From Mrakia gelida (lineage: Eukaryota; Basidiomycota; Tremellomycetes; Cystofilobasidiales; Mrakiaceae), in assembly GCA_024345305.1 (NCBI GenBank), contig BRON01000004.1:2046001-2110000 (forward strand): DNA of 64,000 nucleotides, given 5' to 3'. This document shows, one piece after another, positions 14,670-19,865 of the stretch. Made by a program: the position numbers and the translations under genes. Every line of letters begins with the position of its first letter. The first letter of the stretch is position 1. A model generated the notes under the pieces. It was not told the origin of the DNA, made no database searches, and saw only the letters and a program-made list of their open reading frames with translations.

Positions 14670-14937
14670 ATCAGACCCGTTTTGGTTGGAGGAGATCTTT
14701 CTCGCTTAGATGCTAGGTTGTACTATGGATTTTATAAATAGATAAAGGGTATATATATACTGCTTTTACCTTCAACGCGACGAGAGAGGAGGGACGAGAG
14801 AAAGGAGAGGCGAAGGAGCCGAAAGGTGAGCTTCGACGAAACTTGATCATCAAGAACGCTCGCGTCAGCTTTCTCCCTTCAAACCACGTCCAGATTTTGT
14901 TCTCCTCTTAGAGCACTCTCGGTATAGATTCAAGGAT
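14670..14937. other. BCAT 3' UTR with AT-rich patch
   Basis: The stretch at 14725-14760 is strikingly AT-rich for this genome (TTTTATAAATAG, then an AT repeat). It may be the polyadenylation zone of the aminotransferase gene or a TATA-like element about 180 bp before the next ATG. Confidence 0.4.
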
Positions 14938-16020
14938 ATGGAAGACAGTGAGCCCTCACATCCTCCATCGAATCAAGCTCAAGCTCGCTTTCCTTCCTTG
15001 AGCCTTCATCGAACCAAACTCTTCGAGCTCACCTTTCCCTTCCTTCCTCCCCCTCTTCCCCTCTCCCTCCCTCCCCCAGTATTCGAATCCTCCCTCTCCT
15101 CCCTCTTCTCCCAACCCGTCATCGCACACTCCCTCGCTCCCTCCGAAACCCACTTCCTCTACCCTCATGCCTCCCTCCCAACGCCCTTCAAACTTCTCAT
15201 CCCTCAATCCCCTCCCAAGCTCAACTTCTTGCAGACAAGCTACCTCTGGCCCTCCTCCCTCTACCTCGCCCACCTCCTCCTCTCCGAAACCATCCCTCTA
15301 CGGAAAGACGGTTCCGAGAGGATCGCCGAGCTTGGAGCTGGGAGTGGACTGGCAGGAGTGGCGGCTGGGTGGATGATGAGAGGAGGAGGGGGTGAGCTCG
15401 TCGATACGGATTTCGGAGACGAGGGGATCTTGAACGCTCTCAGGGAGAACTTGGAAATCAACCTCAGACCTTCAAAAGAGAAGGGGGGACTGAGATGGGA
15501 AGTGCTACCACACGAATGGGGGACTTCACCAACACCTCTCCTCCTCTCCCCTCCCTCGACCTCACCTTCGCCCCGTCGATTCACCACCCTCCTTCTCGCC
15601 GACCTCCTCTACTACACCGCCGGTCACTCAGCCCTCCTCGCGTCCATCTTCGCGCTCTTAGCACCCTCGGAGGAAGGAGGAGTCGCCCATCTCACAGCTG
15701 GTCTGCACGGAGGGAGAGGAGCCGTCGAGAGGTTCGGTGAACTCGCGAGAGCAGCTGGGTGCGTCGTCGAGGAGAAGGAGGTCGTCGTTTGGGATAGTGC
15801 GCTGGAAGAGTGGGTGAAGGTGGGACGGGAGGAGGAAGATGGGGAAGGGAGGGTGTGGAGAGGTGTACTCAAGGTTGGGAAGAGGGAGCTAGAGTTGTTT
15901 GGTGAGTACAGATCGCATCGAAACGGAGACGGACGGACGCGTTTGCCTTCTCCGCGTCCGCGTTCGCTGACTCTCGACCTTCCTTCTCTTACTCGTCTCT
16001 TTGCAGGTGCAGATTTATGA
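14938..16020 (+). CDS. S-adenosylmethionine-dependent protein methyltransferase, Efm7/Nnt1-like (PF10294)
   Basis: About 330 residues in one large exon plus a tiny last exon that codes the final residues (ELFGADL). The SAM-binding motif I is IAELGAGSGLAGVAAG. An upstream YLWPSSLYLAHLL segment is typical of the family-16 lysine methyltransferases, and LLADLLYY corresponds to the post-motif region. Such enzymes methylate translation factors or other proteins in the cytosol. The exact substrate cannot be read from sequence. It is unusual here in having a single intron (about 15902-16006), so its reading frame is certain. It lies between metabolic genes on the same strand. Confidence 0.8.
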   Translation: MEDSEPSHPPSNQAQARFPSLSLHRTKLFELTFPFLPPPLPLSLPPPVFESSLSSLFSQPVIAHSLAPSETHFLYPHASLPTPFKLLIPQSPPKLNFLQTSYLWPSSLYLAHLLLSETIPLRKDGSERIAELGAGSGLAGVAAGWMMRGGGGELVDTDFGDEGILNALRENLEINLRPSKEKGGLRWEVLPHEWGTSPTPLLLSPPSTSPSPRRFTTLLLADLLYYTAGHSALLASIFALLAPSEEGGVAHLTAGLHGGRGAVERFGELARAAGCVVEEKEVVVWDSALEEWVKVGREEEDGEGRVWRGVLKVGKRELELFGEYRSHRNGDGRTRLPSPRPRSLTLDLPSLTRLFAGADL

Positions 16021-16291: not shown

Positions 16292-19200
16292 GTCGCCCTT
16301 TCCTTCCTCGCATCTTCGGTTCGTCTCGTCTCGTCTTCTTCCCACACTCAACCCTCTGCCCCCCCTCGAGCTGACCCTTCTTCGTCCATCGATCTACCAG
16401 ATCGTCACCCTAACCTCCTCCAAACAACCTCAGCATCCTACCTCCCCCTCGTCGCTCGAGATACCAACGACACCGTCTCCCCCACCTGCGCCGCTCCCCC
16501 CCTCGCTCTCCAGACCTTCTACCCTATCTGGGACGCTCCCAAGAACGCCAAAGGAGAAGATGGATCGAGGTTGGCCTACGGACCTCCTAACGCGCCGATC
16601 AAGAATCGATTTGGACAGCCTGCTGCTGGGTCGGATAAACCGAAGGTCAGCCAGAGCTCGATTCAGCGCTCGTTTGTTTTTCTTGCCGTCGTTCGCCTGC
16701 TGATCATGATGGTTCGATTAAAACCAGGTCAAGAACTTTATCTTCTCCGTGCCTGATGGGTTCGGACCTGCTTCTCAGGTGTTTGGTGAGTCTTCTCGAA
16801 CGCAAAAGAGTGAGGAAGAGATAGGGAAGTCGGACGACTGATCTTCTTTCTCGTCCGTTCGTCTTTGCCTCTTTTTTACAGCACGAAAGTGAGCTCCCCT
16901 TCCCAGACTCTCGAGTTGCCCAAAGTAAGGATGGAACGCTGACGCTGTTCGGTTTCGGTCTTGCTTCGTTCTCAGCTACTGGCAATGGGAGAAAAACAAG
17001 ACTTGGGACGATCAACTCCCAGCGGACAAGTTGTTGGTTGGGACTGTTAGAACGAGGTTGAGTGATTCGTTTGTGAGTTGACGTTGACCTTGATCTTCTA
17101 TTCAACGAGGTAAATCCCTGCTGACTCGCGCTTTCGCTTCGATGTTGGTTCATCTTCTCAGGGTAAGTTCGAGAACGACGACAAAGCCCGAGTTCGCACC
17201 AAGACCCTTTCTTCCGCTGACGTCTCTCCTTCGTCTTTCATCAGTCACCGACAGCGCTGCAGCCGCATCAGCCTACTCCACTGGAGTGCTCACTTACAAC
17301 GGAGCTATCGCTACCGATGATGATGCTCGGTGAGTTCTAGAACATCGAGACGAGCGCGAGGCTCAACGAGACTGACTTTCTCCCTGCGTCTCGCGTTTCA
17401 GTCCCATCGGAACTGTCCTCGAAGCTGCTGCTGCTCAAGGATACTTCACTGGGCTCGTCGTCACCAGCCGAATCACTCATGCTACCCCAGCCTCGTATGC
17501 TTCTCACTGCTACGATCGAGAGCAGGAAGCTGTGAGTTTTTCAAGAACGAGTCGTTCGGTTGAGTTCGACGCGTTCTGACTCGACCACTTTCTCTCTCGA
17601 TCAGACCATCGCTGAGCACATGATCGGTTCGTCCACGCTCATGAATCGTATCTGCGTACGTACAGCTGACTCTCTTTACTTTCATCGATCTTAGGAGGGA
17701 CTCCTCTCGGTCACACCGTCGACTTGATGATGGGCGGTGGTCTCTGCTACTTCCAGGTTCGTTCACTTCCCACTTTCTTTCTCGTCGAGATCACTCTGAC
17801 ATTGACTCTCCCTCTTCCTACCAGCCCAACACCTCAGACTACCCTCGATCCTGCCGAGGAGACCAGAAGGACCTACTAGCTCAGGCGAAGGACGATGGTT
17901 CGTCGCATCCTCCTCCCCTCCGTACAGTACTTCTCAATCTCATTCTCGAGCCGACCTCGTCCTTGCTTCTTTCCAGGCTACTCCGTCATCACCAGCAGGA
18001 AAGGCTTTGACTCTCTCGACGGAGGAAACAACGTCACCCTTCCCCTCATCGGTCTCTTCACCGGTTCGCACATGAAGTAAGTCCTTCAATCTCGTTCCGC
18101 TTCGTCGAGACTCATCGCTGACCCTTCCTTTCCCTCGCTAGCTACGAGATCGAGCGAAACTCGACTCTCGAGCCCTCCCTCTCGGAAATGACCAGGACTG
18201 CTCTTCAGGCTCTTCGGCTCGCTACGGCGAACAGCGAGAAGGGCTTCTTCATCATGGTGAGCTCGAGCTCGATCTCGCTCCGTGCCGTCCTTCGTTCGTC
18301 TCGCTGACCTATTTCTCCTCATCCCCACTCCCAGGTCGAAGGATCGAAGATCGACCATGCCGCTCACTCTCACGATCTACCCGGTCATCTTCACGAGATC
18401 CTCGAGTGGAACAGGGTGAGTAGCATTCGGTCGAACGAAGAACTTGACGCGTCTGTTTCAACGTTGACTGACTCGACTTTCGTTCGCTTCTCTTTACAGG
18501 CTGTCCAAGTCATCGTTGACTTCATCGATGAGGGAGATGATGATACTGTTTTCGTTGGGTCAGTGAAACAATCTCTGTTCGACAGATGAACTCTCGTTTC
18601 GTTTCCCGATCGCTGACACCCACGTCCTTTCTCCCACTTTCTTCGTCTCTTCTGTTCGTTCCTCTCAGTGCGGCCGATCACGAGTGTGGAGGTCTAGTTC
18701 TTGGAGGAGCGACGGTCGGTGGGCACGAGTATCAATGGGTGCCTGAAGGTGAGTTCGTCGTTCCTCGTCTTCGTCGAGGTTCCCTCTTTCTTTCTGCTGA
18801 CGCGCCCTCTTTCATCCTCATCGCAGCCATCTCGCAATCCAAGAACTCAGCTGCTACTCTCGCTAGCCGAGTCGTCGCGTACAAGGGAGACGACCTTCCC
18901 AAGTTCGTCGAGGAAGACATCTTCCCTTCTTACGGAGTCTTCGACGCGAACTCGACGGAGATCGACGACGTGGTTGATAACCTCAAGACGCCTGGATAGT
19001 GAGTTCCGAGATTTCTTCCACTCAACACTCTCGAGAGGACTGACGAGATCGCTTCAACAGCGTTCTCGAGGGAGTTATCGCCGACTCTTTGAGTCGACGA
19101 GCGATGTGTAAATGGACGACTGGGTGAGTCTCTGCTTTCGTGAACCCTTGTCGAGTGGATGCTAACATTCTCTTTTGATTCTCTCGCAGAGGTCATTCTG

Positions 19201-19865
19201 CGGTCGAGTGAGTCCTTTCCCTTCGCGCGTCGAGCTCTTCGGTCGGCTGATCAGTTCTCTCCCTCTCTTTTCCTGCAGCGTCAACCTCATCGCATACCCT
19301 CCTCATCTCACCAAGGACATGGTCGGAAACCAGTGAGTTCCCTCTGTATCATCTGCTCGTCCTTGCTTGGCTGACCGATCGATCTCTTCCTCGTCTTCAG
19401 CGGATCCACTGAGCTCGCTCGTTTCGTCGTCGATCAACTCGCTCTGGATCTCAACGCTATCACCGACAGACTCAACGCTGAGGATCCTGAGACTCAGGAA
19501 TGGAGGGATAACTCTGTTGGGACTCTGAAGTTCGTCGACGGGAAACCTGTCGGAGGCGGTGAGTCGACGTCTTCCTTCTTTTGACGCGTCTTCGCCTTTT
19601 CTTCTTCTTCCTTCGTCTCTCGAGCTGAACCTCGTCGATCGTCTTGCCTTTTCTCTGTCTACATGTATACATCGGGTCTCCTCCGGACCGTCGAACAGAA
19701 AGGAAGCGAAGACGAACAGGTTCGAGACAGAACACGCGTCGCACGCGAGACCCCATCGTTTTCCACCTCCACTTCCTCTCACCCATCACTCGTTCTGACC
19801 CCTTTCCGTCACCCTTTGATACTGACTCAGAACAACTCAGAATTCAATCCAACCAGGAGGGGTAG
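16292..19865 (+). CDS. PHO8: Alkaline phosphatase, Pho8 type
   Basis: Metal-dependent phosphomonoesterase, vacuolar or secreted in fungi. The spliced protein contains KNFIFSVPDGFGPAS, the catalytic serine region VTDSAAAASAYSTG, HATPASYASHC, VEGSKIDHAAHSHD, VGAADHECGG and a late TGGHSAVDVNLIAY, i.e. the nucleophile and the zinc/magnesium ligands in order. About twenty introns are seen. Conservation demands a 7-nt exon (16882-16888), a 1-nt exon (17162) and an 18-nt exon (19190-19207). The N-terminus is uncertain: from the ATG at 16292 the first intron is in frame whether spliced or not, and no clear signal peptide is seen. At the 3' end, reading through gives a stop at 19584; two well-formed introns instead add a short basic tail ending at 19865, which I prefer. 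Confidence 0.9.
16882..16888 (+). other. 7-nt exon of the alkaline phosphatase gene
   Basis: CACGAAA lies between a T-rich CAG acceptor and a GTGAGCTC donor. It supplies the Ala-Arg-Asn link between GFGPASQVF and YWQWEKN. Confidence 0.7.
17162..17162 (+). other. Candidate single-nucleotide exon (G) in the alkaline phosphatase gene
   Basis: An intron of 89 nt (17073-17161; GTGAGT, CTGAC, CTTCTCAG) and one of 82 nt (17163-17244; GTAAGT, CTGAC, TTTCATCAG) flank one G. With it the frame reads RLSDSF-V-TDSAAAAS. Without it the conserved serine region is out of frame. Confidence 0.62.

Follow-up and report, generated by a model that had tools for sequence, protein, structure and literature searches.

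A probable single-nucleotide exon in an alkaline phosphatase gene of Mrakia gelida, with further candidates across the genome

An alkaline phosphatase gene of Mrakia gelida very probably contains a real exon of one nucleotide, predicted from genomic DNA: the G at position 17162 of the window (the whole stretch of 64,000 nt that was analysed, C4:2046001-2110000 in an assembly of 34.86 Mb and 25 contigs). We consider it highly likely that this G is a coding exon lying between two GT-AG introns removed by intron definition, and that it is a member of a class. Others probably accompany it: about 15 such exons are predicted in the genome, with very unequal support, and some dozens by rough estimate. 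Single exons of this kind were known before, rarely, and what appears to be new is their number in one genome.

The predicted exon, its introns and its gene

A preliminary description had divided positions 17073-17244 into two introns of 89 and 82 nt around a lone G, and our coordinates match it exactly (89 + 1 + 82 = 172 nt). The features concerned are as follows, in window positions unless a contig is given.

16433..19558, + strand: coding part of the alkaline phosphatase gene as modelled, with 20 exons and 19 introns in one open frame of 549 codons, ends provisional
16882..16888, + strand: 7-nt exon CACGAAA, joining its neighbours in frame (...QVF-ARN-YWQW...)
16976..17072, + strand: upstream exon, ending RLSDSF, phase 0
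17073..17161, + strand: intron 1, 89 nt, GTGAGT...CTTCTCAG, with CTGAC 41 nt before the intron end
17162, + strand: predicted single-nucleotide exon G, base 1 of the Val codon in VTDSAA
17163..17244, + strand: intron 2, 82 nt, GTAAGT...TTCATCAG, with CTGAC 28 nt before the intron end
17245..17329, + strand: downstream exon, starting TC-ACC-GAC (TCACCGAC), the rest of Val and then TDSAAAAS
C4:1051605-1053936, - strand: alkaline phosphatase paralogue with SDSLVTDS in one piece, without an intron there
C17:540403-542204, + strand: alkaline phosphatase paralogue with SNSLVTDS in one piece, without an intron there

Complete GT-AG introns flank 17162 on both sides, each with a donor, a branch-like site and an acceptor, and in CAG-G-GTAAGT a single base separates the acceptor of one from the donor of the other. 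The consensus donor, CTGAC and CAG acceptor that had been ascribed to each intron were all located (GTGAGT with CTTCTCAG, GTAAGT with TTCATCAG and CTGAC in both). The assignment of the gene to the alkaline phosphatases also held, with a match to PF00245 over profile positions 2-419 of 423 at 287.4 bits (cut-off 24.4; E 2.5e-85). The 20-exon model was built by hand, and its start codon and 3' end are provisional.

The reading frame calls for the extra base. The catalytic serine is encoded in the downstream exon, within TDSAAAAS, and omitting the G breaks the frame of this conserved motif, as does a lone 172-nt intron. The preliminary description had said that one long intron shifts the frame of VTDSAAAAS and that the G restores it, which agrees with our enumeration: among 43 frame-restoring single GT/GC-AG introns, 27 were stop-free, and all 27 delete or insert residues at the motif. 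The predicted mRNA junction would be TCG-TTT-G/TC-ACC-GAC (SDSF-V-TDS; a slash marks a junction within a codon), so that TCGTTTGTCACCGAC would be the message across it and TCGTTTTCACCGAC a message speaking against the model. Among the 120 alkaline phosphatase homologues listed, of 2356 found, [VI]TDS[AS] is present in 117 and absent in 3. In the 117 listed homologues showing it, the spacing of the VTDS motif is constant throughout, R-T stands exactly at -8/-7 from V in 115 (F-T in the remaining 2), and the residue corresponding to G/TC is either V (105) or I (12).

Besides the one-nucleotide exon, the gene has further small exons of 18, 22 and 7 nt; the one at 16882-16888 (+) lies two exons upstream of 17162. 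The top database matches are two Mrakia frigida proteins, one with 93% identity over 63% of the query and the other with 63% identity over 86%. As annotated, the M. frigida orthologue starts at MIGGTPL, downstream of both micro-exons, and the region of the one-nucleotide exon is absent from the entry; the gene finder may have failed at these micro-exons. Around the exon, an antisense open frame at 16707-17237 had no Pfam match, and a sense open frame at 17097-17330 matched only from the VTDS exon onward. An Rfam search of 16900-17400 gave a sole match (E 0.42), under its cut-off, on the other strand and outside 17073-17244. Upstream, an open frame at 14830-16020 (+) with an ELGAGSGLAG stretch resembles, by eye, a SAM-dependent methyltransferase. 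A CGACGCG motif recurs in introns ahead of the branch-like site, for example at window positions 17560-17600 and in the calcineurin A gene L037.

Alternative readings of the interval

With weights learned from the other 17 introns of the gene, the two tested ones being left out, intron 1 scored 18.0 and intron 2 scored 16.5, within the 12.5-19.6 spanned by those 17, and the interval read as one 172-nt intron scored 8.2. There is only a slight chance that the true account is such an intron plus a genome sequence that is wrong by one base at the edge of an exon. An extra base at either exon edge would likewise restore the frame, and the sequence comes from one assembly only, but this would leave unexplained an acceptor-G-donor that is close to consensus and has a branch-like site to itself: an internal acceptor-N-donor of the observed quality arose in 0 of 20,000 dinucleotide shuffles of the stretch, and one matching the weakest real sites of the gene in 1 of 20,000. 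The implied intron would also exceed the gene's other 17, which span 62-110 nt, and the error would need repeating in other genes, each time next to an internal site of this type. No intron among 130 others in 13 gene-path models was 160 nt or longer, a result that is partly built in, since that model penalises long introns, and is therefore weaker than the one from the hand-made model. We hold it similarly improbable that a single intron uses a shifted donor or acceptor and adds residues to the motif or removes them from it. A donor at 17077 would give SDSF-VI-TDS, a donor at 17062 would give RL-ITDS, and the donor at 17073 with an acceptor at 17186 or 17192 would insert 19 or 17 residues. 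These frames are open, and a VI insertion of such a kind occurs in the annotated Phaffia calcineurin; however, the shifted donors ending at 17244 score -1.8 and 4.3 compared with 16.5-18.0, the motif spacing is constant in all 117 listed homologues showing it, and neither paralogue has extra residues in the motif.

Two further accounts seem to us close to negligible. Two excisions from one intervening stretch, with splice sites nearly back to back, recall a stwintron or a zero-nucleotide recursive splice site, either of which would leave no base in the mRNA. Here the frame needs one base to be kept, and both introns carry complete sites of their own; the splice elements are uninterrupted, unlike those of a stwintron, and a zero-nucleotide site needs AG directly followed by GT, whereas the sequence is CAG-G-GTAAGT. 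Alternatively, the gene could be non-functional and its frame no longer maintained, given a paralogue with an intact motif on the same contig. A dead gene would hardly keep 20 exons in one 549-codon frame with a full-length domain, or 93% identity to the M. frigida protein across its annotated part.

Further candidates in the genome

The genome was scanned with two patterns. Pattern A (CTGAC N15-40 CAG N GTRAGT) found 23 sites against 5 with the pattern reversed, and pattern B (CTGAC N15-42 YAG N GTNNGT N20-50 CTGAC) gave 36 matches, 2 of them at one site, against 2 reversed. United they comprise 46 sites, a set joined and sorted partly by eye from patterns that favour strong sites, and 15 of these read as single-nucleotide exons by frame, the alkaline phosphatase exon included. 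With 0, 2 and 3 middle bases, pattern B matched 49, 27 and 37 times, compared with 36 for one base; because these counts are similar, the raw number shows no excess of one-nucleotide exons and sites need judging by frame. Among the 0-, 2- and 3-base sites on C1-C20, several that have a clean tract could be 2- or 3-nt exons. Of the 46, 27 did not come out as single-nucleotide exons, most of them having a further AG between branch and acceptor and resembling the ends of longer exons.

Sites were checked by frame and translation, and with a home-made gene-path model carrying a 6-nat penalty on exons below 10 nt. The model was trained on the alkaline phosphatase gene and applied locally, as a whole-window run chained each strand into one "gene"; retrained versions lost the small exons and hence were not used. 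It picked the one-nucleotide exon in 13 of the 17 loci tried, the others being L033, L052, L055 and L069. The fifteen predicted sites are listed below.

Site 1: alkaline phosphatase, G/TC, Val
Sites 2 and 3: two calcineurin A paralogues on C17, C/TC, Leu in SAPNY-L-DVY and SAPDY-L-DVY
Site 4: complex I 20-kDa subunit, AT/C, Ile in SDVM-I-VAGT
Site 5: EF-2-like protein, AC/G, Thr in DC-T-LHAD
Site 6: SIW14-like phosphatase, TT/A, Leu in LKTV-L-TLI
Site 7: CFA-synthase-like protein, A/TC, Ile in RKW-I-FPGG
Site 8: mitochondrial carrier, C/C/T, Pro in IY-P-IDAVKT
Site 9: WSC protein, T/AC, Tyr in AGLE-Y-YTQC
Site 10: aldehyde dehydrogenase, T/TC, Phe in SIND-F-GVF
Site 11: UNC-93-like protein, GG/A, Gly
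Site 12: ABC transporter, A/A/C, Asn
Sites 13 and 14: two MFS transporters, T/A/T, Tyr, and T/AC, Tyr
Site 15: membrane protein of no named family, G/GT, Gly

Aligned to solved structures, calcineurin, the EF-2-like protein, the complex I subunit and the SIW14-like phosphatase show no gap at the junction, with one of the two SIW14-like alignments shown having a one-residue gap some residues upstream of it. At the complex I site the gene-path model favoured a residue-adding exon of 22 nt, and the one-nucleotide exon is chosen there on homology. The structure match of the mitochondrial carrier is weak, though ungapped at the junction, and the aldehyde dehydrogenase alignment has a gap a few residues from it. 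The CFA-synthase-like and WSC sites rest on homologue motifs and internal repeats; two sister WSC domains in the same protein keep the same spacing. Sites 11-15 rest on frame, joined by the domain family at all but site 15, where a Pfam search gave no match and the score gain is the smallest (2.6 nats). The MFS site L055 is weak, with CTGAC just 17 nt from the acceptor and a best model path that crosses a stop.

Several pattern sites were set aside. One reads better, by eye, as a 5-nt exon: L068:1539-1543 (C17, near 672310) is a probable exon CGTCC, in a gene that, by one motif, looks like that of a GH1 beta-glucosidase. L046, L049 and L060 proved to be degenerate copies of the aldehyde dehydrogenase site and were rejected as one-nucleotide exons; they lie close to contig starts, at about 24.5 kb on C4, 12.7 kb on C5 and 34.2 kb on C10. 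The calcineurin A gene L037 also has a 3-nt exon 237-234 nt before its one-nucleotide exon (C17:695070-695160; gene-path model and 3-base scan).

Across the 15 sites the base is G in 3, C in 4, A in 5 and T in 3, and it is the first base of the codon in 8, the second in 3 and the third in 4. A bias towards G, as suggested in PMC12940212, was not seen among these sites. Of 130 ordinary model introns, 67 would pass pattern B at the 3' side and 52 at the 5' side (product 0.206), so that 13 supported pattern-B sites point to about 60 single-nucleotide exons genome-wide, a crude figure that assumes independence.

Splicing, origin and related systems

The preliminary description had held that exon definition cannot explain an exon of one nucleotide, in line with the discussion in PMC4674806. 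Where introns are short, splice sites would instead be paired across the intron, that is, by intron definition. With a single base between them, acceptor 1 and donor 2 could scarcely both be occupied simultaneously, and one intron would leave first and the other follow; the two introns at 17162 are thus most likely removed one after another, and use of the exon would presumably be constitutive. Guo and Liu make the stepwise argument likewise for APC11 (PMC4674806). The order of removal is not told by U1 complementarity, which for donor 2 hardly depends on whether intron 1 is still present: the two values agree at 12 of 15 sites, and at the other 3 the value after removal is higher.

Tandem duplication of introns is not supported as an origin, since paired introns are no more alike than mismatched ones (mean likeness 0.125 versus 0.106, s.d. 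0.067, 12 pairs). The exon may have arisen as introns came to flank a single nucleotide in a lineage where they are extremely dense; reports credit Phaffia and other Cystofilobasidiales with more introns per gene than any other fungi (PMC5103461). With a mean exon of 98 nt (112 model exons), random intron placement would make about 1% of exons one nucleotide long. Gene and exon numbers like those given for M. psychrophila (5994 genes with 8 exons apiece; PMC5100859, which also describes a transcriptome of that species) would then lead us to expect some hundreds. Set against these hundreds, the estimate of about 60 suggests that most such exons are purged, or that few are gained, although they are tolerated. 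Since exons of 3, 5 and 7 nt occur too, the one-nucleotide exon seems to mark the extreme of a continuous range of sizes.

Protein entries from other species contain possible traces of the same feature. SAPNYLDVY is found in 116 of the 120 calcineurins listed, with 1 giving no match; the exceptions are the M. frigida paralogues (SAPNYVDVY and SAPDYVDVY) and Phaffia rhodozyma (SAPNYVIDVY). In the CFA-synthase-like protein, M. frigida has RKWVFPGG against RKWIFPGG in our model. Identity to the M. frigida entries is 92% for calcineurin and 95% for the CFA-synthase-like protein. A V would arise if the extra base were the first G of the donor (G/TC), and VI if the exon were extended by four bases (GTNA/TC), and in sequence all four entries, three from M. 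frigida and one from Phaffia, look as if annotation had tried to accommodate a single additional base. It is also possible that the M. frigida V residues reflect a genuine one-nucleotide exon G instead. At the RKW/FPGG codon, 27 of the 119 matched CFA-synthase-like homologues listed have extra residues (VL in 11, VI in 7, AI in 4, others in 5), all of which we take, going by their names, to be from Agaricomycetes. The remaining 92 have I in 69 and V in 23, where V is the residue of M. frigida, Mixia and additional Agaricomycetes; Trametes is split, three species having I and four VL. These residues hint that the CFA-synthase-like exon is old, or may instead reflect true residue variation.

A broader interpretation, which we put forward tentatively and incline slightly against, is that single-nucleotide exons are regular and long-lived in intron-saturated fungi and are hidden by annotation. 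The calcineurin exon would then predate the duplication and be shared with Phaffia, and the CFA-synthase-like exon would be shared with Agaricomycetes. Annotation would have shifted the junction by one or four bases, leaving V, VI or VL at otherwise fixed positions, and the present genome would contain dozens of such exons.

The preliminary description called exons so short "almost unknown". That fits, but single-nucleotide exons have been published, in APC11 of Arabidopsis (PMC4674806), VPS55 of plants (PMC8831610) and CYP621A of Fusarium (PMC12940212), and they probably form a class in this genome. The Fusarium case is the closest: a fungal nuclear gene with a lone G between CAG and GT, required by frame and a conserved motif, in a stretch about twice the usual intron length. 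It concerns one P450 subfamily in an ascomycete genus, with the G central in its codon and RNA reads in support, whereas ours is a basidiomycete case, at the first base of a codon and predicted from DNA, with many more genes and all four bases involved. The APC11 and VPS55 exons, too, are one-nucleotide coding exons between two GT-AG introns that annotation missed (PMC4674806, PMC8831610); soybean APC11 illustrates in PMC8831610 how reads across such an exon may escape an aligner to which it was not supplied. Constitutive or alternative, they are explained by intron definition with stepwise removal, and they were proved by cDNA, minigenes and reads, in two conserved clusters in 10 plant species; in contrast, about 15 are found here in one genome, as predictions. 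Fungal stwintrons resemble our case in having two spliceosomal introns removed successively from one intervening stretch, but they are nested (PMC5639578): the internal intron splits a splice element belonging to the external intron, and the mRNA retains no base of the stretch. In the open-licence literature listings that we searched, no report appeared of a one-nucleotide exon in a basidiomycete nuclear gene, nor of many in one genome. Placozoan cox1 is a mitochondrial gene, outside nuclear spliceosomal splicing. An exon of one base pair is reported for it (PMC5436844).

If our reading is correct, these sites would form a natural set of minimal exons in conserved genes, covering every base and every codon position, that allows tests of the spliceosome on sites one base apart and makes the lower limit of exon length under intron definition testable. 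Conserved genes of intron-dense fungi would also be mis-annotated in a recognisable way, as an unusual residue at the junction. Calcineurin of M. frigida and Phaffia and the CFA-synthase-like protein of M. frigida would be examples of this signature, which could be searched for in protein databases.
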